Shown: piece after piece, positions 4,780 to 21,180 of the stretch | Position numbering within the stretch: the stretch's first letter is position 1 | How the letters are laid out: the number at the start of each line of letters is the position of its first letter | NCBI RefSeq assembly: GCF_009695745.1 | Contig: NZ_VUNH01000014.1 | Coordinates: 1 to 64,000 of the forward strand | Reading direction: 5' to 3' | DNA length: 64,000 nucleotides | From: Pyramidobacter porci | GTDB taxonomy: Bacteria > Synergistota > Synergistia > Synergistales > Dethiosulfovibrionaceae | Made by a program: the position numbers and the translations under genes | The notes under the pieces: model-generated | The model's input: the letters and a program-made list of their open reading frames with translations, nothing else | What the model was told of the DNA's origin: nothing | The model's database searches: none

Positions 4780-5214
4780 TTATCCCCGATTCCGGTTCAG
4801 CAGCAGGTCGACGGCGTCGAGGTAGCCTTTCAGGCCGCGCCCGGCGATCTGGGCGACGCAGGCTTCGCGGGTGTAGGAATGGCGGCGGAAATCCTCGCGC
4901 GACTGGATGTCGCTGACGTGGACTTCGACGGCGGGGATGCCCACGGCGCGCAGCGCGTCGGGAATGGCAACGCTGGTATGGGTGTAGGCGGCAGGATTGA
5001 TGACGATGCCGTCGACGTTCCCATAGGCTTCCTGGATGCGGTCGACGATCGCGCCCTCGTGGTTGCTCTGGAAGAATTCCACGTCCGCGCCGGCGGCGGC
5101 GCAGTGGGCGCGGATCATTTTCTCCAGGTCGGCCAGCGTGGCGCGGCCGTAGATTCCCGGCTCGCGCACGCCGAGCATGTTCATGTTGGGGCCGTTGACG
5201 ACGAGGATCTTCAT
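4780..5214 (-). CDS. aroQ: Type II 3-dehydroquinate dehydratase
   Basis: The enzyme (144 residues, normal length) dehydrates 3-dehydroquinate to 3-dehydroshikimate, third step of the shikimate pathway, in the cytoplasm as a dodecamer. The family motifs are all present: NGPNMNMLG at the start, the catalytic tyrosine in GIYG near residue 22, [30 protein letters not shown], the catalytic histidine in VEVHVSD, and FRRHSYT with the conserved arginine. It is the last gene of the aro operon. Its ATG overlaps the stop of the preceding aroE/K gene by four bases (ATGA), so translation is coupled. The stop codon lies directly beside a truncated repeat element. Confidence 0.95.
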
Positions 5215-6428
5215 AGCTGCAAAGCCTCCTTGATTTTTGCGGCGGCATCCTGCGCCGACGACGCGGAAACGGTCAGGTCGGCCCAGGCGCGGTACAGCGG
5301 CAGACGCCGGCGGCGCAGTTCTTCCACGCCGACGGACTGCGACAGGGGCCGTCCGTCGACGGGCAGTTCGCCAGGGCGGTCAAGCCAAACGCAGACGCCG
5401 TTCTGACGAAGCAGCGGACGGTTGCGCGGCTGCGTGACCACGCCGCCGCCGGTGGCGATGACGATGCCGCTCTCCTTGGAGACGCCGGCCAGCGCTTCGG
5501 TCTCGAGCCTGCGGAAGGCGGTTTCGCCGCGTCGCGCGAAGATTTCGGCGATCGGACGGCCTTCGCTCGCCTCGATCAGCTGATCGATGTCGCGCACGGG
5601 GCGCCCCGTCAGCCGGCCGAGCGCCCGCGCCGTTGTGGTCTTGCCGCAGCCGGGCATGCCGATGAGCGCGACGTTGCCGGTACGGCGGGCGATGGCTGCG
5701 GTGATGCGGTCTGCCAGTGTCGCGGGCAGTTCGCGGCCGAGGAACAGTTCGCCGGCGCGCACGGCCTGGGCAGCCAGCATCGCCAAGCCGCCGCGCGCGG
5801 GGAGGCCGAGCTCTTCGGCCTGAAGGAGCAGCGCCGTGCGCAGAGGGTTGTAGATCACGTCGAGCACGAGCCGGCATCTGGGAAAGAGCCGCAGGTCCAC
5901 GGGGGAGGCGCCGTTTTTCGGGTACATTCCCACGGGCGTCGTGTTGACGATCAGTTCGGCGTCGGCGTGTCGTTCGAGGGTGGCATAGGTATCGTCCCCC
6001 GAGCGCGAGATCACGGCGAAGGGAATGCCGCAGCTTGCCAGCACAGCGCGCACGGTGCGCGAAGCGCCGCCGTTGCCCAGCACGAGCGCGGGACGGCCGC
6101 GCAGGCGTTCCGCATCTTCCCCGAGCAGATGCAGAAAACCGTCCCAGTCTGTGTTGTCGCCGCGCCATTCCCCGTCGGGCAGGCGCGTCACGGTGTTGAC
6201 GCAGCCGATGGCGCGGGCGCGCTCCGACAGCTCGCGGCAGCTTCGCATCGCGTCGATCTTGTAGGGAATGGTGACGTTGAAGCCATCGCCGTCGCTTGCG
6301 CGCAGAAAGCCGTCCAGCGCTTCCGGCTCCAGGGGATAGAGCTTGTACTCATAATCGCCGATCAGGGCGTGGATAGCGGGCGAGAAACTGTGGCCGAGCG
6401 CGCGGCCGATCAGGCCGAAGCGCCCCAT
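5211..6428 (-). CDS. aroE-aroK: Fused shikimate dehydrogenase - shikimate kinase
   Basis: One 405-residue chain carries two consecutive shikimate-pathway enzymes. Residues 1 to about 250 are AroE: the substrate loop [16 protein letters not shown] with the catalytic lysine, DNTDWDGF, the NADP-binding GNGGASR and NTTPVGMYP. From about 252 the shikimate kinase begins with Walker [11 protein letters not shown], then the DIDQLIE acid motif and ATGGGVV. It would reduce dehydroshikimate and phosphorylate the product without release from the polypeptide. Separate genes are the norm in bacteria; this join is unusual but in frame and motif-complete. The start directly abuts the pheA stop with no gap, and the end overlaps aroQ by four bases. 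Confidence 0.93.
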
Positions 6429-7574
6429 TTACACCACCTCGGAGTAGCTGCCCAGATATTTGAGCGTGGTGACGGCGCCCTGCAGGTCGTCGAAGACGCG
6501 CAGGAAGGAATCGTTATAGACGGAGGAGTCGAGGTCGAAATAGAACATGAATTCGAAATCGCTGTTGGCCAGCGGCCGGCTCTCCAGTTTGAGCAGATTG
6601 ATGTCCAGGGCCTTGAAACGAGACAGCACGTGCGACAGCGAGCCGCGCTTGTGCGGCAGCACCATCATCAGGCTGGTGCGGTTGGCGCCGGGATAGATCT
6701 CCAGATCTTTGGCGATGCAGATGAAGCGCGTGAAGTTGCTGCCAGCGTCCTGCACGGAAGCTTTGAGGCAATCCAGACCATAGAGTTCGGCGCAGCTGCG
6801 CGACGACAGCGCCGCCAGATCTTTGCGCCCCGACTCGCGCACCATCTGCGCGGCGACGGCCGTGTTCTTGACGGGCGTGACCTTGACCCCCAGCGACTTG
6901 AGGAAGCTCTGGCTCTGCGCCAGCGCCTGCTCGTGAGAGATGATCTCTTTGATGTCGCCGATGGAAACGCCGGGATTGGCAAGCAGGCAGTGGTCGATCT
7001 TGACGCGGCAGCTGCGCACGATGTAGCAGCTGTGCTCCATCATCAGATCGTAGATGCGGTTCACCGAGCCGGCCGTGCTGTTCTCGATGGGCAGCACGCC
7101 GTAGCGGCACAGCCCCTGCTCGACGGCGGAGAAGACGTTTTCGAAGTACTGAAAGTACATGATGCTGCCCGAGGGGAAAATGCGCTCGCAGGCCATCTGC
7201 GAATTGGCCCCTTCCACGCCCTGGCAGGCGACCGCAGAACGGACGGGAAACTGCGCCGGCGTATTGGCCAGCGCCAGCGAGATCTGCTGTTTGAGCGGCG
7301 AGCCGCCGGCGATGATGCGGTGCTGCTCGGAACGGCTCAGGTCGAAGATCAGCGAGAACAGCGCGTCCATGGACGGCGCCAGCTCTTCGCCGACCGAATC
7401 GGCCAGATCGTTGAGCTTCTGACGTTCGCGGGCGGGATCGTGGATGGGAATGTTGTTTTTGGCCTTGTAGGCGGCGATATCGCGCACGACGGCGAAGCGT
7501 CGCGTGATCAGGTCGACCAGGCCGCGGTCGATCTCGTCGATTTGAGTGCGAAGATCTTTCATGTCCATTTTCAT
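6429..7574 (-). CDS. pheA: P-protein: chorismate mutase - prephenate dehydratase
   Basis: This bifunctional enzyme turns chorismate into prephenate and then phenylpyruvate, the committed route to phenylalanine. Residues 1 to about 85 are an AroQ-type chorismate mutase (LRTQIDEIDRGLVDLITRR). Roughly 105-285 is prephenate dehydratase, with the NSTAGSV segment and SNFTRF, whose Thr-Arg-Phe is essential in the family. About 295-375 is an ACT domain with the LESRP motif that binds phenylalanine for feedback inhibition. Length (381) is typical. AAAGGAG inside the end of aroC serves ATG 7574, which overlaps the aroC stop by four bases; further ATGs two and four codons on are possible. Regulation is therefore likely double: allosteric here and attenuation at the operon head. 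Confidence 0.95.
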   Translation of the reverse strand: MKMDMKDLRTQIDEIDRGLVDLITRRFAVVRDIAAYKAKNNIPIHDPARERQKLNDLADSVGEELAPSMDALFSLIFDLSRSEQHRIIAGGSPLKQQISLALANTPAQFPVRSAVACQGVEGANSQMACERIFPSGSIMYFQYFENVFSAVEQGLCRYGVLPIENSTAGSVNRIYDLMMEHSCYIVRSCRVKIDHCLLANPGVSIGDIKEIISHEQALAQSQSFLKSLGVKVTPVKNTAVAAQMVRESGRKDLAALSSRSCAELYGLDCLKASVQDAGSNFTRFICIAKDLEIYPGANRTSLMMVLPHKRGSLSHVLSRFKALDINLLKLESRPLANSDFEFMFYFDLDSSVYNDSFLRVFDDLQGAVTTLKYLGSYSEVV

Positions 7575-8674
7575 TCGGCTCCTTTGAGCGGTTCATAGTT
7601 TCCCGGAAGCAAGGCGTCGCAGAGGGCGACGGCGGCGGCCGCTTCGACGGCGGGGACGGCGCGCACGGCCACGCAGGGATCGTGACGGCCTTTGATATTC
7701 AATTCCGTGAGCTGCATGGCGCTGAGGCTGAGGGTCCGCTGCGCGCGGGCGATGGAAGGCGTCGGTTTGAAGGCGGCGCGGAAGATCAGCGGCATGCCCG
7801 TGGAAATGCCGCCGAGAATGCCGCCGGCGTTGTTCGTGGCCGTGACTACGGTGCCGTCCCGCAGCGCGAAAGGATCGTTGTGCTCGCTGCCCCTCATGGC
7901 CGCGGCCGCGAAACCGCTGCCGAATTCCACGCCCTTGACGGCGGGAATGCCGAAGACCAGGGAGGCGATCCTGTTTTCAAGCCCGCCGAACATCGGCTCG
8001 CCGAGCCCCGCCGGCAGGCCGGCGGCGGCGCATTCGACCACGCCGCCGAGCGAATCCCCCGCGGCGCGGGCGCCCTCGATCGCCGCGGCCATGCGTGCCC
8101 CGGCGGCCGCGTCGAGCACCGTCAGCGGCGAGAAGAGGCGTGCGTCGAAGTCGGCTCGGGAGACGGACACGGCGTCGAAAGCGCAGTCCTCCACGCCGCC
8201 GACGCTTCTAAGATGCGCACCGACGAAAATTTCCCGCGCCTCGAGAATTTGCAGACAAACGCCGCCGGCCGCGGTCAGCGGCGCCGTGAGCCGGCCGGAA
8301 AAATGGCCGCCGCCCGAGGCGTCCTGAAAACCGCCGTATTTGACGGAACTCGTGTAGTCGGCGTGCCCCGGCCGCGGCACGTCCCGAAATTCGGAGTAAT
8401 CGCCGGGACGCGCGTCGGCGTTGCGAATGATCAGACAGAGCGGAGAACCGCACAGCCGCCCGCCGGCAAGCCCCGAAAGGAACTCGATCCGGTCGTCTTC
8501 GCGGCGCGGCGTCGCCAGCGGGCCGCCGGGCGCGCGGCGTTTCATGAAGGCGTCCAGACGCTCCATGTCCACGCGGAACCCGGCCGGAAGCCCCTCGATT
8601 ACGGCGCCGACGGCGGCCGAATGGGACTGCCCGAAGATGGAGAGACGGATGCGTTCGCCCCAGCTTGAACTCAT
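7571..8674 (-). CDS. aroC: Chorismate synthase
   Basis: Chorismate synthase (367 residues) eliminates phosphate from EPSP to give chorismate, using reduced FMN. Family motifs are seen: the GQSHSAAVGAVIEGLPAG opening (a known variant of the GESHG start), RRAPGG, RPGHADY, GRLTAPLTAAGGV and, near the C-terminus, the NIKGRHDPC segment. Two ATGs are available, 8680 and 8674. GGAGGT (8686-8681) abuts the first with no spacing, so ATG 8674 is preferred; the first would give an ATGA overlap with aroA. The end overlaps pheA by four bases. The upstream open frame is much longer but that part is out-of-frame aroA DNA, not protein. Confidence 0.95.
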   Translation of the reverse strand: MSSSWGERIRLSIFGQSHSAAVGAVIEGLPAGFRVDMERLDAFMKRRAPGGPLATPRREDDRIEFLSGLAGGRLCGSPLCLIIRNADARPGDYSEFRDVPRPGHADYTSSVKYGGFQDASGGGHFSGRLTAPLTAAGGVCLQILEAREIFVGAHLRSVGGVEDCAFDAVSVSRADFDARLFSPLTVLDAAAGARMAAAIEGARAAGDSLGGVVECAAAGLPAGLGEPMFGGLENRIASLVFGIPAVKGVEFGSGFAAAAMRGSEHNDPFALRDGTVVTATNNAGGILGGISTGMPLIFRAAFKPTPSIARAQRTLSLSAMQLTELNIKGRHDPCVAVRAVPAVEAAAAVALCDALLPGNYEPLKGAE

Positions 8675-8676
8675 GA

Positions 8677-9942
8677 TCATACCTCCGTTCTGACGACGCC
8701 GCCGAGCGCGGCGAAATCGTCGAAAAAGCCCGGATAGGATTTGTCCACCGCTTCCGCGCCCGTGATCGTGACCGTCTCGGAACACAGCACCGAGGCGGCC
8801 GCGCCCAGCATGGCGATGCGGTGATCGCCGCACGCGTCGACGATGCCGCCGCGCAGCGAGCCGCACCCGTCGATGAGGATGCAGTCGCCGTCGGGTACCG
8901 CGTGCCCTCCCAGCGCGTTCAGCGCGCCGCAGACCGAGGCGACGCGGTCGCTTTCCTTGAGGCGCAGCCGCCCGACGTTCACGATCGCCGTGCGCCCTTT
9001 GACCGCGGCGGCGGCGACGGCCAGCGCGGGCACCAGATCGGGCGTGTCGCCCACGTCGATGCATGTTTCGCGCAGCTCCGCCGGCGCCACCGTGATGGAA
9101 TCGCCGGCGATCGAGACCTTGGCGCTCATGCGCCGCAGAATTTCCGCCACGGCGCTGTCGCCCTGCAACGACGGCAGCGCCAGCCCCGTGACGGCGAGCT
9201 TTGCGCCGGCCGCTCCGGCGCAAAGCCAAAAGGCCGCGTTGGACCAATCGCCTTCGGCTCTCAGCCCGGCGGGGGCGACGTATCGCTGCGCGCCGGAGAC
9301 GGAGAACCTGCCGGCGGAACGGCCGATGACGATGCCGAAGGCGGCCAGCGCCGCCAGCGTCATGTCGACGTAACCGGCCGATTCCAATCGGTCGGCGATG
9401 AGGACGCGGCTGCTGCCTTCGAGCAGCGGCAGCGCAAAGAGCAGTCCCGTGAAAAACTGCGACGACACCGTGCCGGGCAGACGGTACCGGCCGGCCGTCA
9501 GCCGTCCCTCGACGACGGGGTGATCCGTTCCCTTGCCGGCGATGACGACTCCATGCCGCTCCATTTCGTTCCACAGATCGTCCATCGGCCGCGACGGCAG
9601 TTTGCCGTGCAGCGTGAAGCGCGCCTTTCGCCCCAGCGCGGCCGCCAGCGGCGTCATGAAACGGTACGTGGAGCCGCTTTCCCCCGGGTCGAGTTCGACC
9701 GCGCCGCTCGCGTTCCGGTCCAGCGGCGTGACGGCGATGACGCTGCCGTCGACGGCGATCTCGGCTCCCAGCGCTCTCAGGCAGCGCATTGTGGCTTCGA
9801 TGTCCTGCGAGACGACGCGGCAGGGCAGCGTCGCCGGCCGGTCGCCCAGCGCGGCGCAGATCAGCAGGCGGTGGACGTGCGACTTCGAGGGAATGGCGGC
9901 GATCGTGCCGCTCAGCTTGCGGGGCGTGATGGTGACGATCAT
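8677..9942 (-). CDS. aroA: 5-enolpyruvylshikimate-3-phosphate synthase
   Basis: EPSP synthase, 421 residues, joins phosphoenolpyruvate to shikimate-3-phosphate. It has the two-domain inside-out barrel motifs: IPSKSHVHRLLICAAL (substrate lysine), LDPGESGSTYRFM, DRLESAGYVDMT, LRLKESDRVASV and GDHRIAMLGA. The PEP-binding loop reads ESGSTYRFM, where the usual GNAGTxxR is replaced. That places it outside the plant/E. coli-like class I enzymes and makes it a candidate for the class with lower glyphosate sensitivity; this is inference. ATG 9942 is served by GGAGGTT inside aroB and overlaps the aroB stop by four bases. Confidence 0.94.
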   Translation of the reverse strand: MIVTITPRKLSGTIAAIPSKSHVHRLLICAALGDRPATLPCRVVSQDIEATMRCLRALGAEIAVDGSVIAVTPLDRNASGAVELDPGESGSTYRFMTPLAAALGRKARFTLHGKLPSRPMDDLWNEMERHGVVIAGKGTDHPVVEGRLTAGRYRLPGTVSSQFFTGLLFALPLLEGSSRVLIADRLESAGYVDMTLAALAAFGIVIGRSAGRFSVSGAQRYVAPAGLRAEGDWSNAAFWLCAGAAGAKLAVTGLALPSLQGDSAVAEILRRMSAKVSIAGDSITVAPAELRETCIDVGDTPDLVPALAVAAAAVKGRTAIVNVGRLRLKESDRVASVCGALNALGGHAVPDGDCILIDGCGSLRGGIVDACGDHRIAMLGAAASVLCSETVTITGAEAVDKSYPGFFDDFAALGGVVRTEV

Positions 9943-11036
9943 GCCGTGACAACCTCCGTTTCGTCCGCGGACAGGGCTTCGAGCCCGTCCGCGAGGAACG
10001 CGCGCGCCTCTTCGAGCATGACCTTGCGCCGTTCCACGCTGCCGATGCTGCGGGGAAGCACGAGCGTGACCGTGTCGGAAGCGCGCTTTTTGTCGGCGAG
10101 CATGCCTGCGAAGAGTTCGTCGGCTTCGAATCGGGTCGTCTGCGGCAGGCCGCGCAGCCGCAGCGCGCCGGACAGCTGGATAAGGGTCTCCGGCGCGCAG
10201 ATGCCGCGTTTGGCGCAGGCGGCGGTGACAATCATCATGCCGATGGCGACGCAAAAACCGTGCGGGATCGAAAAGCCGCTGCACTTTTCCACGGCGTGGC
10301 CGAACGTATGCCCGAAGTTGAGGATCTGGCGCAGCCCCGTCTCCTTCTCGTCGCGGCGCACCACGTCGCGTTTGATCTCCACGCAGCGGTGCACGATTCC
10401 GGCGATTTCGGCGGCGCCGAGGTTGGGCTTGCGCGCCGCGTCGAAGAGTTTGGCGTCGCGGATCATGCCCGTCTTGATGATCTCGCCGAAGCCGTTGGCC
10501 AGCTGCTCTTTCGGCAGCGTCGCCAGCGTTTCCGTGTCGTAGAGCACGAGATCGGGCTGGTAGAAGGTTCCGACCAGGTTTTTGCCTGTCTCGAGGTCGA
10601 TGGCCGTCTTGCCGCCCACCGATGAGTCGACCGCGGCCAGCAACGACGTCGGCAGTTGTACGAGGCCGATGCCGCGCATATACAGCGAGGCCGCCAGCCC
10701 GCCCAAATCGCCGACGACCCCGCCGCCGAGGGCGAAGAGCGTGTCGCTGCGGATCATGCGCAGGGCGGCCATGCGGTTGAGCAGGTCAAAGAGCGAACGC
10801 ATGTTCTTGTTCTGCTCGCCGGCGGGAACGACGTGCAGAGTCGGCCGGAAACCGGCGTGTTCCAGCGAGTCGACGACGCGCCGCGCGTAGAGCGGCGCCA
10901 CGTTGGCGTCGGAGACGATCAGCGCCTGCCCGGCACCGCGCAGGGGCGCGGCGATCTCGCCGGCGGCGCTGAGCAGATCGGCGCCGGTGTGAACGTAGTA
11001 CTTCTTCGAAGGCGTGGAAACTGTGACGCTGTTCAT
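9939..11036 (-). CDS. aroB: 3-dehydroquinate synthase
   Basis: The enzyme (365 residues) cyclises DAHP to 3-dehydroquinate using NAD and a divalent metal. Motifs are GGGVVGDLGGLAAS (NAD and metal site), LPTSLLAAVDSSVGGKTAID, KNLVGTFYQP and the metal-binding NFGHTFGHAVE. Full length for the family. The ATG at 11036 follows the tyrA stop with no spacer, and the end overlaps aroA by four bases, so it is embedded in the chain of coupled aro genes. Confidence 0.95.
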   Translation of the reverse strand: MNSVTVSTPSKKYYVHTGADLLSAAGEIAAPLRGAGQALIVSDANVAPLYARRVVDSLEHAGFRPTLHVVPAGEQNKNMRSLFDLLNRMAALRMIRSDTLFALGGGVVGDLGGLAASLYMRGIGLVQLPTSLLAAVDSSVGGKTAIDLETGKNLVGTFYQPDLVLYDTETLATLPKEQLANGFGEIIKTGMIRDAKLFDAARKPNLGAAEIAGIVHRCVEIKRDVVRRDEKETGLRQILNFGHTFGHAVEKCSGFSIPHGFCVAIGMMIVTAACAKRGICAPETLIQLSGALRLRGLPQTTRFEADELFAGMLADKKRASDTVTLVLPRSIGSVERRKVMLEEARAFLADGLEALSADETEVVTA

Positions 11037-11876
11037 TTATCCGTCCACCTCTTCCTTTCTCCGGCGTCCCTCCTCGAGCAGCCGCCAAAGCCGTTTTTCG
11101 TCGCCGGCGGCGATGGCGTCGCGATACTGTCGCAGTTCGCCGAGAATCTGGTCGATCTCGAAGAGCAGATGGTCGCGGTTCTCGAGGAACAGGTCCGTCC
11201 ACATCGTCGGGTTCAGCCAGGCCACGCGGGTCAGATCGCGGTAGGAGCCGGCGGAGAAGCCGTGGTGCTCGCGCGCTGTCGGGCTTTTCACGTAAGCGTT
11301 CGAGACCACGTGCGCCAGCTGCGACGTGAAGGCGATCAGCCGGTCGTGATTCTCCGCCGTCGTCACGGCGAGGCGTTGGAACCCCGCCGGCATCACGAAA
11401 CTCCTGACGCGCTCCAGCAGCGTGACGTCGTCGTACACTCGCGGCACCACGACAAAACTGGCGCCGCGGAACATGTCGGCGCGACTGTTTTTGAATCCCC
11501 AACGGTGCGTGCCCGCCATCGGATGGCCGCCGGCGTACTCGAAACCGTACTGCCTGGCGAGCCGGAAGCCGAGCTCGCAAATGCGGCGCTTGGTGCCGCA
11601 GCAGTCCATCGCCAGCGCCGATGCCGGAATGAAGGGCGCGTTTGCCTCCAGCCACTGGCAGGAAAGTTCCGTGTGCAGGCAGACCAGCACGCCGTCGCAT
11701 TTCCCCAGCGTCTCGCGGTTCAGTTCGCCGTCGATGGCTCCCAGCAGCCGGGCGAATTGCAGCGTGGACTGATCTTGTTCGGCGGCGTAAACGACAAACG
11801 TCTCGTCGGCCGCCTTGTAAGCGCGCGCGAACGAACCGCCGATCAATCCCAGTCCGACGATGCCGATCGTCTTCAT
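11037..11876 (-). CDS. tyrA: Prephenate dehydrogenase
   Basis: This 279-residue NAD(P)-dependent enzyme decarboxylates prephenate (or arogenate) toward tyrosine. The Rossmann motif GLGLIGGS lies at residues 7-14. The catalytic region GGHPMAGTHRWGF holds the conserved histidine, and the all-helical dimerisation half follows with SQLAHVVSNA and SAGSYRDLTRVA. No ACT domain is attached, so feedback by tyrosine, if any, is not through that fold. ATG 11876 overlaps the aroF stop by four bases. With pheA in the same operon, both aromatic branches are made from one transcript. Confidence 0.93.
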   Translation of the reverse strand: MKTIGIVGLGLIGGSFARAYKAADETFVVYAAEQDQSTLQFARLLGAIDGELNRETLGKCDGVLVCLHTELSCQWLEANAPFIPASALAMDCCGTKRRICELGFRLARQYGFEYAGGHPMAGTHRWGFKNSRADMFRGASFVVVPRVYDDVTLLERVRSFVMPAGFQRLAVTTAENHDRLIAFTSQLAHVVSNAYVKSPTAREHHGFSAGSYRDLTRVAWLNPTMWTDLFLENRDHLLFEIDQILGELRQYRDAIAAGDEKRLWRLLEEGRRRKEEVDG

Positions 11877-12874
11877 GCCAGCGCCTCGCGTACCCGCCGC
11901 ACCTTCCGCGCCACCTCGTCGAACTGCCCGGGCGTCAGCGATTGGGCGCCGTCGCACAGCGCGTGGGCGGGATCGTTGTGGACCTCGATGATCAACCCAT
12001 CGGCGCCGGCCGCGGCGGCGGCATAGGACATCGGCGCCACGTAGCGCGAGTAGCCCGTGGAATGACTGGGATCGATGATCACGGGCAGGTGAGTGAGCTC
12101 GTGCAGCACGGGCACGGCGGAAAGATCGAGCGTGTTGCGCGTGTAGGTTTCGAACGTGCGGATGCCGCGCTCGCAGAGAATGACGTTCCCGTTGCCGCCG
12201 GCCATGATGTACTCCGCGCTCATCAGCAGTTCCTTGAGCGTGTTGGCCAGCCCCCGTTTGAGCAGAATCGGCTTGCGGCAATGCCCCAATTCCTTGAGCA
12301 GGTCGAAGTTCTGCATGTTGCGCGCTCCCACCTGAAGCACGTCCACCTCGGCGAACAGGTCGAGATCGTTGATGTTCATGATCTCCGAGACCAGCGGCAG
12401 CCCCGTTTCCTTCTTGGCCTCGAGCAGCAGCCCGATCCCCTCGCCGTGCAGCCCCTGGAACGCGTAAGGCGACGTGCGCGGCTTGAACGCGCCGCCGCGC
12501 AGCATCGTCGCGCCCGAAGCCTTGACGGCTTTGGCGACGGCGATGATCTGCTCGCGGCTTTCCACCGAGCAGGGACCGGCGATGATCTGGAAATGGCCGC
12601 CGCCGATCTTGACGCCGCTCACGTCGACGACGGTGGGCTCCTCGTGGAACTTGCGGTTCGCCTTTTTGAACGGATCGCTGATGCGCGTGACGCGCTCGAC
12701 GATGGACAGGCTCTCGAGCATCTCGATATCGACTTTGCTGACGTCGCCGATGAGGCCGATGATGGTGTGGAACTCGCCCTGCGAAACGTGGCAGGAAAGC
12801 CCCATGCTCTCGAACCATTTGCAGAGACTGTCGCGCTGCTCCGGGGTGGTGCCGTTTTTCAAGACTGCGATCAT
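11873..12874 (-). CDS. aroF: 3-deoxy-7-phosphoheptulonate synthase (DAHP synthase, type I-beta with N-terminal regulatory domain)
   Basis: First enzyme of the pathway: condenses PEP and erythrose-4-phosphate. Of 333 residues, the first 70 or so form a ferredoxin-like ACT-type domain (from MIAVLKNGTTPEQRDSLCKW) as in Thermotoga DAHP synthase, where it binds Phe and Tyr. The barrel then shows AGPCSVES, GGAFKPRTSPYAFQG, VGARNMQNF, LLKRG and IIDPSHSTGY. A strong ribosome site (AAGGAGGAG) precedes ATG 12874. As first structural gene it sits directly behind the Phe/Tyr leader and terminator, so the whole operon is probably controlled at that point as well as allosterically here. Confidence 0.95.
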   Translation of the reverse strand: MIAVLKNGTTPEQRDSLCKWFESMGLSCHVSQGEFHTIIGLIGDVSKVDIEMLESLSIVERVTRISDPFKKANRKFHEEPTVVDVSGVKIGGGHFQIIAGPCSVESREQIIAVAKAVKASGATMLRGGAFKPRTSPYAFQGLHGEGIGLLLEAKKETGLPLVSEIMNINDLDLFAEVDVLQVGARNMQNFDLLKELGHCRKPILLKRGLANTLKELLMSAEYIMAGGNGNVILCERGIRTFETYTRNTLDLSAVPVLHELTHLPVIIDPSHSTGYSRYVAPMSYAAAAAGADGLIIEVHNDPAHALCDGAQSLTPGQFDEVARKVRRVREALA

Positions 12875-12926: not shown

Positions 12927-12963
12927 AAAAAAACAAGGCCGTGCAGCGATTCTGCACGGCCTT
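12927..12963 (-). terminator. Attenuator (terminator) of the aro operon
   Basis: On the minus strand a perfect 12-bp stem (AAGGCCGTGCAG pairing with CTGCACGGCCTT) closes a 5-base loop and is followed by GTTTTTTT. It lies between the Phe/Tyr leader reading frame and aroF, so a transcript that ends here lacks every operon gene. There is no complete upstream gene for it to terminate, which makes a conditional role the simplest reading. Confidence 0.88.
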
Positions 12964-12988
12964 ATGACTCCCCGAAAAAAACTGCGTT

Positions 12989-13087
12989 TTACCGATCAGC
13001 TTTTTGGCAGCACAAAATCACTTTTCTGGAAGCTCCAAAAAAGTAAAAGTAATAGTATTCGGCTGCAAAAAAGCTGACGTTCATCAT
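12989..13087 (-). CDS. Phe/Tyr-rich leader peptide of the aro operon
   Basis: A 32-codon frame starts ATGATG at 13087 on the minus strand with CGGAG eight bases upstream, and ends with TAA at 12991-12989. Residues 6-17 read FFAAEYYYFYFF: five Phe and four Tyr in twelve codons. The stop lies 26 bases before the terminator stem. This is the arrangement of the E. coli pheL and trpL leaders: scarcity of charged tRNA-Phe or tRNA-Tyr should stall a ribosome in the codon run and change folding of the RNA ahead. The leader bases TCAGCTTTTTTGCAGC can pair with GCTGCCAAAAAGCTGA further on (one mismatch), spanning the codon run. No known protein resembles the peptide; its role is regulatory. Confidence 0.85.
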   Translation of the reverse strand: MMNVSFFAAEYYYFYFFGASRKVILCCQKADR

Positions 13088-13138
13088 CAGGAACGCTCCG
13101 TCATGCCTCTGTGGGCAAGATACTTTTCGATGCTGCTA

Positions 13139-13168
13139 AGTATACAGCGCCTCCCCCGAAATTGTCAA
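13139..13168 (-). promoter_or_regulatory. Sigma-70-type promoter of the aro operon
   Basis: On the minus strand, TTGACA (13168-13163, perfect -35) and TATACT (13144-13139, five of six) are 18 bp apart. Transcription would begin near 13132 and produce a leader of about 250 bases holding the Phe/Tyr peptide and attenuator before aroF. It points away from the PDZ gene that starts at 13276. Confidence 0.8.
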
Positions 13169-13275
13169 TGAATATTGCGAAGATTGCGGGATGATCGTAG
13201 TGCCGGTGGCGTTTGCCGCGTTTCTGCCTTACAATAGTCTCAGTTTTTCCCAACGACTTTCAAGGAGGCATGCTG

Positions 13276-14400
13276 ATGAAAAAATTTTTGGTCTGCACGG
13301 CTGTTTTTCTGAGCGTCGCGGCGCCGGCGGCCGCGTCCGAATCGATCACGGTGTACGGTTTCGACGCCGCCCAGCTGCAGACGTTTATCCTGGCGACCTA
13401 CGACGGCGCCGGTCAAATGGATGTGATCGAGCGGAACGACGCCACCATGGCGATGGCGAAAGAGATTCCCGCGTCCCGCGTGGAACATTTGATGCCGGAG
13501 TACCGCGTCCCCTCGCGCGACCCCCTCGTTCCCGACCGCTGGGAACGCGAGCCCGTGGACTTCGCCGAGGAGCGGGCCACGTTCAACTTCCGTCCCTCCC
13601 GCGACGGCGGCCTGACCGTGAGGATGCGCGCCGACCTGGTCGCCAATCCCGGCATGTGGCGCCGGGAGCGCACCGTATCGCGCGACTGCGGCGACTTCCA
13701 CGCCTACGTCCGCTACGCCCAGGCCTTCTTCACGGGCGGCTGGGGCTCGGGGCTGGACCTCGAAGCGCGGAACGGCCGCATGTACGTGGCCGACGTGCTC
13801 GAAGGCAGCTCGGCCTGGGACGCCGGCATCCGCGCCGGCGACCGCATCCGCATCATCAATAAGACCCCGGCCGACAGCGTGGCGCTTGATTATTTCGGCC
13901 GCAAATACCAGTGGAGCGACTACGGCAAGCCCTTCACCGTCGAGATGGAGCGTCCCAACGGCGAACGCTACCACGCCGAGCTGAGCAACGACTACATCCC
14001 CGCCCAGACGGCGCGGCTCGAACGACTCTTCGGGGTGAGCGACGTCTGGCCGGGCTGGACGCGCGAAGAAGTGGAAGCCTCGACGCGGCGCTGGGTCTCC
14101 CCCGAAGAGAAGAAAGCGCGCGAGGCCGCCCTCGCCGTTTCGTCCAGCGGCATGGAGTTCGACGACGCAGGGCGCGTCATGTCGGTGGCCTCTGGTTCGC
14201 CGGCTGAGACCGCGGGCGTGAAGCCTGGCGACGAGATCGTCGAAATCAATTTGGTCACGTTCGGCGACATGGGCGCCGCCAAAGCTCGCGAAACCATCGA
14301 AAAGCGCGTTGCCGGCGGTCTGACGGCCATCCTCGACCTGAAGCGCGGCGGCTCGACCGTCACCGTCCGGGTGAAAAAGCCCGCTTCGGGCAAAAAATAA
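13276..14400 (+). CDS. Exported protein with two PDZ domains
   Basis: This 374-residue protein starts with a Sec signal peptide (MKKFLVCTAVFLSVAAPAAA, cleavage after ASE or AAA). A novel N-terminal half of about 130 residues follows, then a PDZ domain (about 150-200, AGIRAGDRIRIINKTPADS) and a second at the C-terminus (about 295-365, AGVKPGDEIVEINLV). There is no protease catalytic triad, so it is probably a periplasmic scaffold or substrate-binding protein, not a DegP or Ctp protease. AAGGAGG at 13262-13268 sets the start at 13276 over an upstream ATG at 13270. It is transcribed away from the aro operon, with ridA 16 bp downstream. Confidence 0.75.
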   Translation: MKKFLVCTAVFLSVAAPAAASESITVYGFDAAQLQTFILATYDGAGQMDVIERNDATMAMAKEIPASRVEHLMPEYRVPSRDPLVPDRWEREPVDFAEERATFNFRPSRDGGLTVRMRADLVANPGMWRRERTVSRDCGDFHAYVRYAQAFFTGGWGSGLDLEARNGRMYVADVLEGSSAWDAGIRAGDRIRIINKTPADSVALDYFGRKYQWSDYGKPFTVEMERPNGERYHAELSNDYIPAQTARLERLFGVSDVWPGWTREEVEASTRRWVSPEEKKAREAALAVSSSGMEFDDAGRVMSVASGSPAETAGVKPGDEIVEINLVTFGDMGAAKARETIEKRVAGGLTAILDLKRGGSTVTVRVKKPASGKK

Positions 14401-14416
14401 AAGGAGCGTGCGTTCA

Positions 14417-14794
14417 ATGAAAGAAATCATGCGGGTCAAAGGGCTGAAACCGCGCGGACATTACGCGCTGGCGCTGATTCACGACGGACTGATCTTCATT
14501 TCCGGCCAGCTCTCCAAAGATCCGGAAACGGGCGAGAACCGCCCCGGGTCCATGAAAGAGGAAACCATGCGCGCGTTGAACAACGTCGACCTCATCCTCA
14601 GAGAGTGCGGCTCCTCGCGCGACAAAGTGCTGAAGACCACCGCCTTCGTCGGCAGCCAGGACGACTGGGCCGCAGTGAACCAGTGCTACGCCGAGTTCTT
14701 CGGCGACCGCCATCCGGCCCGCTCGATCGTCCCCGTCGGCGCACTGAACGCCGGCCTGAAAGTGGAGATCGAAGTCATCGCCGCCGTCGAGTAA
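14417..14794 (+). CDS. ridA: RidA/YjgF-family enamine/imine deaminase
   Basis: At 125 residues this has normal RidA length. Family features are HDGLIFISGQLSKDPETGE, the NVDLILRECG helix, the VLKTTAFV strand with its conserved lysine-threonine, and PARSIVPVGAL, which carries the arginine that binds the substrate carboxylate, ending VEIEVIAAVE. RidA hydrolyses reactive enamines formed by PLP enzymes such as threonine dehydratase. AAGGAG (14401-14406) serves ATG 14417; a GTG at 14408 lies too close to it. It is in one transcription unit with the PDZ gene. Confidence 0.88.
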   Translation: MKEIMRVKGLKPRGHYALALIHDGLIFISGQLSKDPETGENRPGSMKEETMRALNNVDLILRECGSSRDKVLKTTAFVGSQDDWAAVNQCYAEFFGDRHPARSIVPVGALNAGLKVEIEVIAAVE

Positions 14795-15048: not shown

Positions 15049-18000
15049 CTAGAAGTCCCAGCGCACCGTGGCGCCGACGCCGAGATCCTTCTGGTTGCTC
15101 GAGAACTGCCCCGACAGGTTCAGTCCCAGCGTCATGTTCCTGCGCTTGCCTTCCAGCTGCAGTGCCGTGCGGAAGCTGTTCTCGTCCGTCACCGCCGAGG
15201 TGAAGTCCATGGCCGGCAGCGTCGAGCCGCTGCCGAGGAATCTCAGGCGGGAATCGATGTCCGTGTCGCCGAAAGCGCGCACGTAGGCGATCTCCAGCGA
15301 CGGTTTCAGCTCCCAGTCGCCCCGGTTCTTCAGGTTCCAGTCGAAGCGCACGCCCAGAGGCAGCGTCCACTGGTCGACGGAGGAGTCTTCGGAGCGGATC
15401 TTCTGCTCGATGAAGCTGCCCTTCATGTCGTAGGCGTCCTGGTCGTAGCGGCTGAAGCGCAGGCCGAGGAACGGCGTCACCTGCACGGAACCGCGGGCCG
15501 GCAGATGCCAGTTGGCGCGTACGCCCGCCGTCGCTACGTGTCCCTTGACGCCGTCGGCGCTGAACGAGCCGCCCGACAGATTCGCCGTCACGTCCGTGTC
15601 GAACCAGTTGTAGCCGAGGTCGCCCGTGAACTCCCAGGCTCCGCGTTTGAAGCCGCCGTACAGGCCCACGCCGATGAACTTGCCGTCGGCGTCGGAGCCG
15701 TACGCGCCGTCGATGTCGTACTTGCCCAGCTGCACGGCCAGACCCGTGGTGAAGCCGCGGCGCGTGAAGTCGCCGCCGATCGTGGCCCCGTAGGACTTGG
15801 TGGTGCTGTCCTGCTCGAAGACGCCCTTGGCGCCGGCCACGGTCATGCCGTCCACGTCGCTGTGCCCGTACCAGATCGAGCCCCACACGCCCTTGTCGGC
15901 CGCGGGAGCGCCGGCGTCAGGCACGAAGTTCATGCGCCCGAGACTGCTCAGGTCGCCGGTGGCGTTCTGGCGGCTGGAAGCGCGCGCGTTGAGCGTGCCC
16001 GCGAAGGAACGCGAGAGCGTCAGCGCCGTGTTGGCCAGCGACAGCAGCGCGGCCGGATCGGATTCCATGCGGAAGCGGTCGGTGAACGTCACCGTTCCCT
16101 CGTCCCACAGCGTCACGTAGCCTTCCGTGATCGGATCCCACGCGCCTTCGGGCGCGTAGGCGAGCGCCGCCTCGTCGAAGATCGCGCCCGCGTAGGGCTG
16201 CGTGTGCCAGTTCATGACGGGGCCGTAGCCGGCGAAGCCGTCGACGATGCGGTAGGGGATGTTCAGCTCCGCCTTCTGCACCATCAGCGCCGCGCCCTTT
16301 TCGACGTTCAGCGCCGCGCTTCCCGTGCCGCGCACGACGGCCATGCCGCCGGCCGTCCGCGTCCCGTCGGCGACCAGCTGCGAAGCCGCGCCGGCCGTGA
16401 AGGACTCCGTCACCGCCACGTCGAGATTGGCGAAGGCCGTCTTGCCCGATCCCGTCAGCGCCAGCGCCGGCGTGCCGATCAGATGCGGCGCGCCCGCCGT
16501 CGAGACGAAGGCGTAATCCTTTGCCCCCGCCACGGTCATCGCGCCGGGCAACACCACGGGATCGACCACGTCCACGACGTATTCTTTCGCCGTATCGTCA
16601 AAGGCGACGCGGTCGGCGTTAAAGAATTTCTCGGCGGCGCCGTTGCCGTCTTTCCAGTTTTGCGTTGCGTCGATGTCCCAATCGGCGTTGGTCGTGCCGT
16701 TCCAGACCAGATCCTTGCTGTCCTTCACGTCGAGGTAGTAGTGCCGCGCGTCGCCGTCCACGTCGAAGCCGACGGAGGCGTTGCGGTATTTCGTCGCCTT
16801 GAAGGCGCCGCCGCCGGTGATGGCCGGGCTTTCCACGGTCATGAAGTAATGTTTGCCGTCGCCGGAAGCGCCGAGGACCATCGCTTCGGAATCGTTTTTC
16901 AGGTCGACCGTATCGGCGGCGATGCGGAACAGTCCGCCCGGCTCGCCCTTCTCGCCGACGAACGCTTCGACCGCCGTCAGGTCGGCCGCGCCGCCCGCCG
17001 GAGTGAAGATCTTGGCGACGGCGTCGGGAACGCCCGCCTCGCTCAGCGCCAGCTTCTGGTCGACGAGTTCTGCGCCTTTGACGCCCAGCAGCGTTTCGCT
17101 CTCGATCGTCAGCGTGCCGCGGAAGACCGCGTCGTCGCCGGCGCTCATGAAGGCGACGCGCCCCTGCGGGGCGATCAGATTCAGATCACCGAACGTGTAG
17201 ACCGCGCCGCCCAGCGCCAGCGTGCTGCCGGAAACCTTGTTGCCGGCGAAGGTGACGTTGCCGTCCGACTCGATGTCAACGTTGCCGAAGCCCGTCACCG
17301 CGCCGCCCAGCGCCACGCCCAGGTCGCCCTCGGCGGCCGCTTCGTTGGCGACGAAGTTGACCTCGCGCCCGGCGAAAATGTCATCGGGCATGAACGCCGC
17401 GCCGCCCGCCGCGAAGGCGATGGAGCGCGCGCTCAGCGCCGCGTTCGCCAGCGCCTTGAGCCCTTCCTCGTTGGCCGGGTCGAGCGAACCGACCAGGTTC
17501 ACGGCCAGCTCCTTGAGCGCGTCGCCCTCGATGCTCAGCGGGATGCCCGTGCTGTTGCGGGCCAGCGCCCGGTTGCGGGTGAAAGCGACCTCGTCGGGAT
17601 AGTTCGTATTGTCCGTGGAGAAGTCCGCCGTCGCGCCGCCCAGCGCCGCCGCCAGCGAGCCGTCGGCCGACGCCCGGTTGTCCGCGAACAGGACCGCGCC
17701 GCCGTTGGGAAGCGTGTCGGCGGTGACGATTCCCGCGCCGCCGATCGCCGCCGCGACCGAGCCGCTCAAACTCGTCGTCCCTTCGCCGAACGGCGTCATG
17801 CCGCCCAGCTTCAGCCCCGCGACGCTGAGCGAGATCTTCTCGCTGCCCAGCGCCTCGGCGCGGTTGCCGCGGAACTGCGCCGACACAGGATTGCCCGTGC
17901 CGGGATCAGCGACGGTCGTCATCCCGACGCCGCCGATGGCCGCGGCCAGGCCGCCCTGCGCCAGCGCGGCGTTGTCCGATACGACGAGCTTCTCGGTCTC

Positions 18001-20817
18001 GATCCAGCCGTCTCCGGCGATCGCGCCGCCGAACGCCGCCGCGATCGGGGCGCGCCCTTCCAGTTTGCCGAGCGAGACGGGCTGCGGAAGGAAGCCCGGC
18101 AGAGCGAGTTCAAGCCCTTCAACGTTCAGCTCCGCACCGCCCGCGGCCTTGGCAAAGGCCGTGTTGTTCGCGAGCGAGACGCGCTGCGGCGCGATCAGGT
18201 CGATGTAGCCAAGGCCGGCCAATCCGCCGCCCAGCGCCGCGGCGATGCCGCCGGACGCCGAGGCCGAGTTGCCCGACAGTTCGATCGTCTCCGCGGCTTT
18301 GGCTTCGATGCCGCCGATGCCCGCCCCCGCGCCGCCGATCGCCGCCGCCACGGGCAGCTTCAGCGCGAAGGCGCCGAGCGAAACTTTCGCGCCGGGAGCG
18401 GCGAAGCCGAGGTCGAGCGACAGGCCCTTCGCCTCGAGCGACAAACCGCCTTCCGCCGTCGCGGAAACGGCGTTGTCCTTCATCTCGACGGTTTTTCCCT
18501 TCAGCGCCGCGCTGCCGAAATCGGCGAAACCGCCGCCGGCCGCCGCCGCGAGACCGCCGGAAGCCGCCGCCGCGTTGCCGTTCAGGGCGAGCGTTTCGCT
18601 CCCCGCGTCAAGATACGTGCCGACGCCGAGCACGCCGCCGCCCAGCGCCGCGGCGAGGGAACCCTGCAGCGACAGGGAATCGAGCGACTGCTTGTAGTTC
18701 GGCGTCGCCGGGTCGGCGTCGTCGTCGTAAACGACGGAGACGCCCTCCAGTCCCAGCAGCTCGAAGTTCTGCGCCGTCGCCTGCGCGGCGTTGCCCGTGA
18801 CGGAAACGCCCTTCGGCCCGATCAGATCCACGTCGTCGAAGCCGGCCAATCCGCCGCCCAGCGCCGCGGCGATGCCGCCGGACGCCGCAGCCGTATTGCC
18901 CGACAGTTCGACCGTCTCGTCGGCGGTGACGTCGATATCGCTGACGGACGCTCCCGCGCCGCCGACCGCCGCCGCCAGGGGCAGGCGCAGCGCGCCTTTT
19001 TGCAGTTTCAGCTCGGGGAACGGAGGCAACACGCCGTCAAGCGCCAGCCCTTCGACGGTCAGCGCCACGTTTCCGTTTGACGCCGCCGACGCCGAATTGC
19101 CCTTCAGCGCCGCGGATTTACCGGTGATCTCGATCTCTTCGACCGCAGCCAGACCGCCGCCGGCCGCCAGAGCGAGCGCGCCCGACGCCGCCGCCGAGTT
19201 GCCCGACAGCAGAACAGCGCCGTCGTTGCCTTTTACTTCGATCCAGCGGCCGGAGAAAGCCGCGCCGCCGGCCGCCATGGCCAGAGAACCTTCGAGGGAA
19301 ACGCCGTCGAGGATCTTTTTCGGTCCCGGCAGCGCCACGGCCCCGACTTTCAGACTCAGCGGGCTGTTTACCTGGGCCGAGGCCGAGTTGCCCGCGAGAG
19401 CGACGCCCTGATCGCCGTCGAAATCGACGTTCCCCATCACGCTGAGGGCTCCGCCGCCCAGCGCTGCGGCGATGCCGCCCGACGCCGTAGCCGAGTTGTT
19501 CGAAAAGTCCACCGCGCCGCTGTTGCTGACGATTTCCGCCGGTCCCGTCATGGCCGCCGCCGCGCCGCCGCCGGCAAGCGCCAGCGAGCCTTCGAGAGCG
19601 ACGTTTTCAACCGTGGCGACGCCCGTTACCTCGAGTTTTTCGACAGACGCCTTGAGCGGGGCGCTTACGTGCGCCGCAGCAGAGTTGCCCGCGACGCTGA
19701 CGTCTTTGTCGCCGTCGACGGAGGCGTCGCCCATCACGCTGAGAACGCCGCCGCCCAGCGCCGCGGCGATGCCGCCCGACGCCGAGGCCGAGTTGTTCGA
19801 AAAGTCCACCGCGCCGCTGTTGCTGACGATTGCCGCCGGTCCCGTCATGGCCGCCGCGCCGCCGCCGGCAAGCGCCAGCGAGCCTTCGAGAGCGACGTTT
19901 TCAACCGTGGCGACGCCCGTTACCTCGAGTTTTTCGACAGACGCCTTGAGCGGCGAGGCGACCTGCGCCGAAGCGGAGTTGCCCGTGACGCTGACGTCTT
20001 TGTCGCCCGCGACAAAGACGTCGCCCATCACGCTGAGAGCGCCGCCGCCCAGCGCCGCGGCGATGCCGCCCGACGCCGAGGCCGAGTTGTTCGAAAAGTC
20101 CACTGCGCCGTTATCGCTGACGATTGCCGCCGATCCCATCATGGCCGCTGCCGCGCCGCCGCCGGCCACGGCCAGCGAGCCTTCGAGAGCGATAGCGTCG
20201 GCTTTGACGGAGCCCGCGTCCAGCGCCTCAACGGAAGCTTTGAGCGGCGAGACCACCTGAGCCGAAGCGGAGTTGCCCGTGACGCTGACGCCGGTCTGGC
20301 CTTTCAGCGTACTGCCTCCCCTGACGCTGAGCACGCCGCCGCCGAGCGCCGCGCTCAGCGCGCCGGTCGCGGAAGCGCTGTTGCCGGAGACGTCCAGCGC
20401 GTGCGTGGCGCTTTCGGCGTTGACGTTATCAAGGGCCGCCAGCCCGCCGCCGCCGGCCGCGGAGAGATTCAATTCTCCGCTCAGGGTGCCCGTAACCAAT
20501 CCCGTCAGCGGCGGAATGTCTTCCAGCTTGAGCGAGAACGGCGCGAGGGCGGCCGAAGCGCCGGCAACGGCGTGATTGCCGGTGACGGAAAGGGCCTCGC
20601 CGGTCACGCTTTCGTTCACGTCGCCGGTGATGTTGAGCGCGCCGCCGCCGGCGGCGAAGTTGACAATGCCGAGCTCGATCGCAAAAGGATTGTTGTTGTC
20701 GATCGTCTTGGCCGCCGCCGGCAGCGACGAGGCGGCCAGCAGCAGCGAGGCGGCCAGCGCCTTGGCGGCCAGCCCGCTGCGGTAACGCGCGATTTCCTGT
20801 TTTCGGTTCTTTTTCAT
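15049..20817 (-). CDS. Large type V autotransporter with Pmp-like repeat passenger
   Basis: The 1922-residue protein has a signal peptide at about residues 15-45 (hydrophobic AAKALAASLLLAASSLPAAA after a basic start). A long alanine- and glycine-rich passenger follows to about residue 1640. The C-terminal barrel of about 280 residues begins near GVWGSIWYGHSD and ends in VRWDF, with the terminal aromatic residue that outer-membrane barrels need. The passenger repeats units such as FSNNSASASGGIAAALGGG and FAGNKVSGSTLALGGAVYT, recalling the FxxN and GGA(I/V/L) motifs of chlamydial polymorphic membrane proteins, and so a parallel beta-helix. It is probably surface-exposed and may serve adhesion or antigen display. 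ATG 20817 has AAGGAGGTT upstream. Confidence 0.88.
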   Translation of the reverse strand: MKKNRKQEIARYRSGLAAKALAASLLLAASSLPAAAKTIDNNNPFAIELGIVNFAAGGGALNITGDVNESVTGEALSVTGNHAVAGASAALAPFSLKLEDIPPLTGLVTGTLSGELNLSAAGGGGLAALDNVNAESATHALDVSGNSASATGALSAALGGGVLSVRGGSTLKGQTGVSVTGNSASAQVVSPLKASVEALDAGSVKADAIALEGSLAVAGGGAAAAMMGSAAIVSDNGAVDFSNNSASASGGIAAALGGGALSVMGDVFVAGDKDVSVTGNSASAQVASPLKASVEKLEVTGVATVENVALEGSLALAGGGAAAMTGPAAIVSNSGAVDFSNNSASASGGIAAALGGGVLSVMGDASVDGDKDVSVAGNSAAAHVSAPLKASVEKLEVTGVATVENVALEGSLALAGGGAAAAMTGPAEIVSNSGAVDFSNNSATASGGIAAALGGGALSVMGNVDFDGDQGVALAGNSASAQVNSPLSLKVGAVALPGPKKILDGVSLEGSLAMAAGGAAFSGRWIEVKGNDGAVLLSGNSAAASGALALAAGGGLAAVEEIEITGKSAALKGNSASAASNGNVALTVEGLALDGVLPPFPELKLQKGALRLPLAAAVGGAGASVSDIDVTADETVELSGNTAAASGGIAAALGGGLAGFDDVDLIGPKGVSVTGNAAQATAQNFELLGLEGVSVVYDDDADPATPNYKQSLDSLSLQGSLAAALGGGVLGVGTYLDAGSETLALNGNAAAASGGLAAAAGGGFADFGSAALKGKTVEMKDNAVSATAEGGLSLEAKGLSLDLGFAAPGAKVSLGAFALKLPVAAAIGGAGAGIGGIEAKAAETIELSGNSASASGGIAAALGGGLAGLGYIDLIAPQRVSLANNTAFAKAAGGAELNVEGLELALPGFLPQPVSLGKLEGRAPIAAAFGGAIAGDGWIETEKLVVSDNAALAQGGLAAAIGGVGMTTVADPGTGNPVSAQFRGNRAEALGSEKISLSVAGLKLGGMTPFGEGTTSLSGSVAAAIGGAGIVTADTLPNGGAVLFADNRASADGSLAAALGGATADFSTDNTNYPDEVAFTRNRALARNSTGIPLSIEGDALKELAVNLVGSLDPANEEGLKALANAALSARSIAFAAGGAAFMPDDIFAGREVNFVANEAAAEGDLGVALGGAVTGFGNVDIESDGNVTFAGNKVSGSTLALGGAVYTFGDLNLIAPQGRVAFMSAGDDAVFRGTLTIESETLLGVKGAELVDQKLALSEAGVPDAVAKIFTPAGGAADLTAVEAFVGEKGEPGGLFRIAADTVDLKNDSEAMVLGASGDGKHYFMTVESPAITGGGAFKATKYRNASVGFDVDGDARHYYLDVKDSKDLVWNGTTNADWDIDATQNWKDGNGAAEKFFNADRVAFDDTAKEYVVDVVDPVVLPGAMTVAGAKDYAFVSTAGAPHLIGTPALALTGSGKTAFANLDVAVTESFTAGAASQLVADGTRTAGGMAVVRGTGSAALNVEKGAALMVQKAELNIPYRIVDGFAGYGPVMNWHTQPYAGAIFDEAALAYAPEGAWDPITEGYVTLWDEGTVTFTDRFRMESDPAALLSLANTALTLSRSFAGTLNARASSRQNATGDLSSLGRMNFVPDAGAPAADKGVWGSIWYGHSDVDGMTVAGAKGVFEQDSTTKSYGATIGGDFTRRGFTTGLAVQLGKYDIDGAYGSDADGKFIGVGLYGGFKRGAWEFTGDLGYNWFDTDVTANLSGGSFSADGVKGHVATAGVRANWHLPARGSVQVTPFLGLRFSRYDQDAYDMKGSFIEQKIRSEDSSVDQWTLPLGVRFDWNLKNRGDWELKPSLEIAYVRAFGDTDIDSRLRFLGSGSTLPAMDFTSAVTDENSFRTALQLEGKRRNMTLGLNLSGQFSSNQKDLGVGATVRWDF
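19380..20270 (-). repeat. Tandem ~99-codon repeats inside the autotransporter gene
   Basis: Three nearly identical DNA units occur in the passenger-coding region; the shared string CGAAAAGTCCAC appears at about 19501, 19798 and 20092. Spacings are 297 and 294 bp, that is 99 and 98 codons, the difference being one alanine codon. Units keep the reading frame. Such recent duplication allows length change by recombination or slippage. Confidence 0.85.
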
Positions 20818-21180
20818 GCGAACCTCCTTGAATGGGATGGATTGTGCCGCCGCGGCTTTTGAAACCGAAAACGGCGGCTTCTGACGAAACGGAAAAAAAC
20901 GCAACAAAGATAAACGCCCTTTTGTGTGTAAAATTTAAACCGATTTTTACTGTTTTTGCAAGACATCACGAAGGCATACCCCCACCCCGAAGCGTTCTTT
21001 TAGTTATCATTCAAAAGTAAAGTCCCGATTTTTATGCGCCGACCTTTTTTGGATAATCAAGTATTATTTGTTAAAAACTTTGCCGACAGCGCCGGAGCAC
21101 GGCAAAAAAACGACGAGGGCGTCATCGCCGCGAGAGGACGTCGCTCCCGTGGAGGGGCCCCGCCGCCCGCGCCGACAAGA
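20818..21180. other. Intergenic region upstream of the autotransporter
   Basis: The part next to the autotransporter gene is AT-rich and must hold its promoter. On the minus strand TTGCAA, 17 bp, then TTAAAT (around 20970-20942) is a weak candidate. Short open frames nearer 21.1 kb are GC-rich and carry no recognisable protein or ribosome site. I see no RNA gene here. Confidence 0.35.

Follow-up and report, generated by a model that had tools for sequence, protein, structure and literature searches.

Background

What switches on the synthesis of aromatic amino acids in Pyramidobacter porci? The stretch of DNA analysed here, 64,000 nucleotides long and called the window below, contains an operon of aromatic genes. 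In front of it lie a promoter, a translatable leader with a ribosome site, a run of codons for the end products and a terminator, together with a predicted antiterminator that excludes this terminator. We consider this feature to be, very probably, a ribosome-mediated transcription attenuator of the trpL/pheL type. An earlier note, made from the letters of the sequence, had proposed this as well. The antiterminator, a key part which that note lacked, was found in the present analysis.

In E. coli, aroF is under the control of the TyrR repressor. The earlier note called it unusual for one leader to read two amino acids. This was overstated: multi-amino-acid leaders are known from ilv and thr, and Phe/Tyr leaders of shikimate genes have been reported elsewhere. 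In E. coli, the leader ORFs of pheL/pheA, pheM/pheST and trpL carry codons for the end product (also PMC11802643).

The nearest precedent is aroR of Corynebacterium glutamicum, a leader with Phe-Tyr-Phe before aroF (Mentz 2013, PMC4046766). Transcription of this aroF is reported to go up under Phe limitation, and the availability of Tyr to be without effect (Neshat 2014, reviewed in PMC11802643).

The operon and its end products

NCBIfam models gave an identity to each of the eight downstream ORFs, all of them on the minus strand. They are aroF (DAHP synthase, 11873..12874, TIGR01361), tyrA (prephenate dehydrogenase, 11037..11876), aroB (3-dehydroquinate synthase, 9939..11036), aroA (EPSP synthase, 8677..9942), aroC (chorismate synthase, 7571..8674), pheA (chorismate mutase-prephenate dehydratase, 6429..7574), an aroE-aroK fusion (shikimate dehydrogenase and shikimate kinase, 5211..6428) and aroQ (type II dehydroquinase, 4780..5214). 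The models confirm the eight-gene aromatic operon that had been described, with aroE and aroK in one fused ORF and a chorismate mutase domain in pheA. All junctions among the eight overlap or abut, which makes it likely that aroF to aroQ are on a single transcript.

Searches for trpE, trpD, trpB and any chorismate-binding enzyme gave no match in the window genome, which is 98.4% complete. Each of the same searches matched 13 to 14 of 14 control genomes. Since no chorismate-binding enzyme was found, Phe and Tyr are the main visible outlets of chorismate, and they look like its main end products in this genome. This suggests an outside source for Trp at least.

The divergent neighbour of the operon, at 13261-14400 on the plus strand, encodes a PDZ-type protein that weakly resembles processing proteases. 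It is adjoined by a RidA-like gene (14408-14794, plus strand). Further on, positions 19370-20290 hold about three tandem repeats of 294 bp, 88-89% alike, which sit in an ORF of 1952 amino acids (15049-20907, minus strand), an autotransporter-type surface protein by appearance. A tRNA scan of the window found no tRNA.

Promoter and leader peptide

The promoter is of the sigma-70 type (13139..13168, minus strand). Its -35 hexamer TTGACA (13168-13163) and its -10 hexamer TATACT (13144-13139) are separated by 18 bp, and are present as the earlier note had them. The pair is the sole sigma-70-like match between positions 4000 and 14000, where 1.4 are expected by chance, so on its own it proves little. 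In the genus alignment, both hexamers are identical in all six members and the flanks differ. Transcription probably starts near 13132.

The leader ORF (12989..13087, minus strand) has 32 codons, MMNVSFFAAEYYYFYFFGASRKVILCCQKADR, followed by a stop codon. GGAG serves as its ribosome site, 8 nt upstream of the ATG. The frame opens with tandem Met codons, and the start is possibly codon 2. Frame and aromatic run are kept in the six genus members.

The regulatory codons 6-17 (13037..13072, minus strand, FFAAEYYYFYFF) read F F A A E Y Y Y F Y F F. This means five Phe and four Tyr within twelve codons, and Trp is absent. Such a density had been claimed for this leader, and it is beyond chance: in 2000 dinucleotide shuffles of the intergenic region, the maximum was 8 and 9/12 was never reached. 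Of the window's 300 small ORFs that begin with ATG, the leader alone has at least 7 Phe/Tyr codons in 12.

A scan of both strands of the window for leader-like ORFs with a terminator returned the leader and four weak others. These four appear to be pieces of longer frames and were rejected. No second copy of the leader was found in its own genome.

Terminator, antiterminator and hairpin

The intrinsic terminator (12927..12965, minus strand) sits between the leader and aroF, which starts at 12874. Here too the earlier description holds: there is a perfect 12-bp stem (12963-12952 with 12946-12935) with the loop AATCG, followed by a T7 run (U7 in the RNA, 12933-12927) and then aroF. If the A-U and G-U ends are counted, the stem has 14 pairs. 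In one relative (L035), the pairing is maintained despite a change from A-U to G-C. Because the upstream neighbour at 13261-14400 is divergent, the terminator cannot belong to an upstream minus-strand gene.

The antiterminator arm, or region 2, comprises leader codons 23-28 (13006..13021, minus strand, GUGAUUUUGUGCUGCC). Its partner, region 3, is the 5' arm of the terminator plus the loop (12946..12961, minus strand, GGCCGUGCAGAAUCGC). When 13021-13006 is aligned with 12961-12946, 15 of the 16 positions are paired, four of them as G-U. The duplex has a predicted energy of -20.8 kcal/mol, versus -12.8 +/- 2.2 for shuffled leaders, of which 0 out of 300 did as well. All 16 nt of region 2 are identical in the six genus members, and the adjoining spacer has diverged.

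Antiterminator and terminator share the terminator's 5' arm, which makes them mutually exclusive. And since the antiterminator arm lies inside the leader ORF, a translating ribosome masks it.

A third structure is the codon-bearing hairpin (13018..13046, minus strand, TTACTTTTTTGGAGCTTCCAGAAAAGTGA), of the region 1:2 type. Its 5' arm carries Y15-F16-F17, and its 3' arm extends into the start of region 2. Regions 1:2 of trpL are arranged likewise. Within the genus, the hairpin is unchanged except for one change in the Y13 codon and one A/G change.

Covariation in the genus yields few pair-keeping changes in terminator and antiterminator, as the sequences are too alike. Neither the window nor any of six relatives has an Rfam match at the gathering threshold. 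When the leader was searched at E<=1, the sub-threshold matches were noise.

Predicted folding and proposed mechanism

The free RNA of each ribosome state was folded stepwise as the polymerase advances, using equilibrium calculations on partial transcripts. With a ribosome stalled in the run, the antiterminator has a predicted probability of 0.98-0.99 until the polymerase is at about 12941. If the ribosome covers region 2, has arrived at the stop codon, or is missing, this probability is predicted to be 0.00-0.01, and that of the terminator reaches up to 1.00.

The position of the stall was also scanned codon by codon, with the leading edge of the ribosome assumed to be 9 or 12 nt beyond the A site. 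A-site codons 11-18 lead to antiterminator probabilities of 0.91-0.99, and codons 4-10 to 0.29-0.91. Two codons further on the fold flips: from codon 20, the probability is at most 0.06. The effective-stall window is thus predicted to coincide with the main Phe/Tyr run, and stalls at Phe and at Tyr codons are predicted to act alike.

Once both its arms are complete, the terminator is the more stable fold even in the stalled state. As the completed terminator is always favoured, antitermination is a kinetic claim, as it is in any such attenuator.

The proposed mechanism would work as follows. RNA polymerase would start near 13132, with a ribosome translating the leader behind it. A shortage of charged tRNA-Phe or tRNA-Tyr would make this ribosome stall within codons 11-17, where it would mask the codon-bearing hairpin and leave codons 23-28 unmasked. 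The free codons would then pair with the nascent 5' arm and loop of the terminator, which could not nucleate, and aroF-tyrA-aroB-aroA-aroC-pheA-aroEK-aroQ would be transcribed. With both tRNAs in their charged form, the ribosome would cover codons 23-28 on its way to the stop. With the antiterminator arm masked, the terminator would fold and transcription would end near 12927. Should there be no translation, the leader would fold on itself and the terminator would form as well. We infer that ribosomes stall at the Phe/Tyr run in vivo, and that both Phe and Tyr are sensed.

Relatives with the same leader

An AroF relative at E<=1e-60 is present in 75 of 188 Synergistota genomes, and 70 further loci were retrieved. 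Class A consists of 19 loci including the window, and all 19 have a Phe/Tyr-rich leader, for example MKQFAAYQFFFGYFYFFSNQS (L043) and MRSLNLTAGYFSNYFRFTYYWGKANSCLAGPGID (L048). Nearly all have the gene order of the window, as far as the contigs extend. Relatives that have the operon and lack the run, which the earlier note had named as the case against its reading, were looked for and none turned up. Loci with aroF in the interior of another operon (L053-L064) or on its own (L045, L049) have no class-A leader. One locus (L041) is cut by a contig end.

The six genus members keep the aromatic run, with one or two codons differing. Their 5' UTR and the stretch after the leader stop codon have strongly diverged. 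Across the genera of class A, the peptide retains aromatic character only.

Compared to shuffles, the antiterminator has p 0-0.023 within the genus and p 0.003-0.01 in g22 and G155. It is weak or not above chance (p 0.08-0.60) in L043, L046, L047, L048 and L050-L052. For the two leaders of the deepest family, f11, the antiterminator was equalled in 0 of 300 shuffles. Taken together, the antiterminator, the stall folding, the invariance of region 2 and the run in 19 class-A loci support ribosome-mediated attenuation.

The two f11 leaders (L097, L099) are very short, MNIVVSKVGACWYYYFFFE and MNIWADRIRDFGYYYFFFE. Their antiterminator starts with the stop codon, and its pairing takes in the terminator's entire 5' arm and the loop, with E about -42. 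Another aroF-tyrA locus (L042) has a promoter-like sequence and a terminator, and in between a frame of five codons (ATGTATAGTTTTGCTTGA, MYSFA), possibly a reduced leader.

A second leader class

Most other Synergistota families have a different leader, here called class B, with Tyr/Phe codons in the loop of a conserved hairpin, plus Trp. Their operon order is aroF-tyrA-aroA-aroC-aroK-aroB, with variations. The leader has about 45-60 codons with the pattern YYF..GQWRYYASG...RGNP; L084, L077 and L066 are among the examples. The hairpin is GGCCAGUGGCG-(Tyr/Phe codons)-CGCCAGUGGCC, and the length of its loop varies in steps of three. An arm 3' of the hairpin, CGUGGAAAUCCG, is complementary to the upper stem and loop of the terminator.

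Covariation was assessed on 27 aligned sequences (A1), with shuffles that carry no correction for relatedness. On that uncorrected basis, 93% of cells pair in the antiterminator, with 23 double changes versus a shuffled mean of 6.3 (0/500). The terminator, likewise uncorrected, has 91.9% pairing and 38 double changes versus a mean of 9.1 (0/500). For the hairpin, 92.6% of cells pair across the 27 sequences. Slid versions, used as controls, score far lower. Terminator and antiterminator share alignment columns and are therefore mutually exclusive.

R1, a covariance model of the class-B hairpin region, matches 39 of the 188 Synergistota genomes. It has no match in the window genome (G000) or in any genus member. 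The pathway is split in genomes of g26, g32 and g40, and there R1 has weaker matches (E 1e-9 to 6e-5) in front of aroA-aroC and in front of aroE. These sibling leaders (L162-L171) have in-frame Tyr runs of two to five codons in the hairpin loop, and their antiterminators have p 0.000-0.065. Such leaders before separate aro operons likely form a shikimate RNA regulon. One further R1 match (L172), in front of a truB-like gene, was judged a false positive.

A genome-wide pattern scan for the class-B motif returned 47 stretches, and only those in Synergistota have leader context. The stretches outside this phylum come without aroF, and appear to be chance. Rfam has no family that matches the class-B leader. 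A search for aroF relatives in viral contigs gave two distant matches. In Thermovirga lienii, the aroF operon and its leader (L070) are off the chromosome, on plasmid CP003097.1 of 31,872 bases.

In a tree of AroF, the leader types track aroF lineages, with 6 changes versus 33 for shuffled labels. Class-B leaders carry a Trp codon, and trpD is present in 27 of 30 class-B genomes. Within class A, the match between Trp codon and trpD is poor: the leader of G155 has Trp without trpD, and G142/G143 are the reverse. Because leader class follows aroF descent, the relation of Trp codon to trpD is a correlation only. The idea that the Trp codon tracks the trp genes, clear between the classes and not within class A, is confounded by descent and was not retained.

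Alternative explanations

It is conceivable, though we doubt it, that the window's attenuator senses Phe only or mainly, and that the Tyr codons are passengers. This is what has been reported for aroR, where Tyr availability has no effect (PMC11802643), and the five Phe codons of the window do bracket its Tyr codons. However, Y11-13 and Y15 are inside the stall window that frees the antiterminator, and their predicted outcome is that of Phe stalls. Tyr codons are also kept in all class-A relatives, and the class-B loop is built of Tyr/Phe codons, with variation in multiples of three.

The leader ORF could also be incidental, with the RNA structures binding a ligand or a tRNA, as in a riboswitch or T-box. 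The sequence of the class-B hairpin is indeed more conserved than its stem alone requires. We nevertheless consider this very improbable: Rfam has no riboswitch, T-box or leader family in the window or six relatives, loops differ in length by multiples of three and in every case by Tyr/Phe codons, the leader frame is kept, and the predicted fold in the window is set by the position of the stall.

Marginally less credible still is arrest by the nascent peptide, in which the peptide itself stalls the ribosome when a free aromatic amino acid is present. The window peptide does not have the class-B sequence, and the class-A genera retain aromatic character only. It is the class-B peptides that appear conserved (GQWRYYASG...RGNP), but hairpin and antiterminator account for the conserved DNA. 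GQWRYYASG was accordingly rejected as an arrest peptide, as the DNA beneath it is constrained by these structures instead.

That a chance ORF precedes the ordinary terminator of a different transcript is extremely improbable, given 0/2000 shuffles, a divergent upstream gene and conservation across genera, even if the promoter hexamers taken by themselves do not exceed chance.

Relation to earlier work

The mechanism of ribosome-mediated attenuation is already known, from trpL/pheL and from aroR. What is apparently new is its occurrence in the aromatic operons of Synergistota. In the searchable, open-licence literature no description of an aromatic leader attenuator in this phylum was found, and the earlier note knew of none in this bacterial group either.

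Like pheL, pheM and trpL of E. coli, the window has a leader ORF with end-product codons and a mutually exclusive antiterminator and terminator. The E. coli leaders differ in serving one amino acid, and one terminal branch or synthetase. With aroR the window has in common a leader ORF upstream of aroF that contains Phe and Tyr codons and, very probably, ribosome-mediated attenuation. Unlike aroR, it has 9 Phe/Tyr codons in 12 instead of Phe-Tyr-Phe, its operon holds the shared pathway plus both terminal branches, and it is from a different phylum.

The candidate uORFC-13-1, before aroF of Acholeplasma, has a uORF with at least one Phe codon and a terminator (Brewer 2021, PMC8632094). In this it resembles the window. 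Its antiterminator is undefined in that paper's text, and it is restricted to Acholeplasma and environmental sequences.

In Stav 2019 (PMC6429828), Fig. 6b presents two candidate uORFs that contain Phe and Tyr codons and precede shikimate genes, from a set of five genomes with T. lienii among them. In codons and position, they are like the window's leader. The T. lienii input given there is chromosome NC_016148.1 only, and the aroF leader of this species is on CP003097.1, so that overlap between the two is unlikely, if unproven.

Class-B leaders have the same order of parts as the window, with aromatic codons in a hairpin and a downstream arm that pairs with the terminator's 5' arm and loop. 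They differ from it in their distinct conserved hairpin and peptide, and in the Trp codon.

Significance

Class B, with leaders placed ahead of several operons, would amount to a new RNA family that still works by the same mechanism. It would give a new Rfam family, and also a handle for annotating short leader genes.

On balance we lean towards a phylum-wide picture, in which Synergistota control the shikimate pathway chiefly by aromatic leader attenuators instead of a repressor. There would be one leader where there is one operon, and, for a split pathway, several sibling leaders that make up an RNA regulon. Phe/Tyr codons would be common to all of these leaders, and a Trp codon would mostly accompany a retained trp branch.

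For the window, a single leader would read both main products of the whole pathway. Its attenuator would be a concrete, testable circuit for the control of aromatic synthesis, in a phylum for which almost no such regulation has been described.
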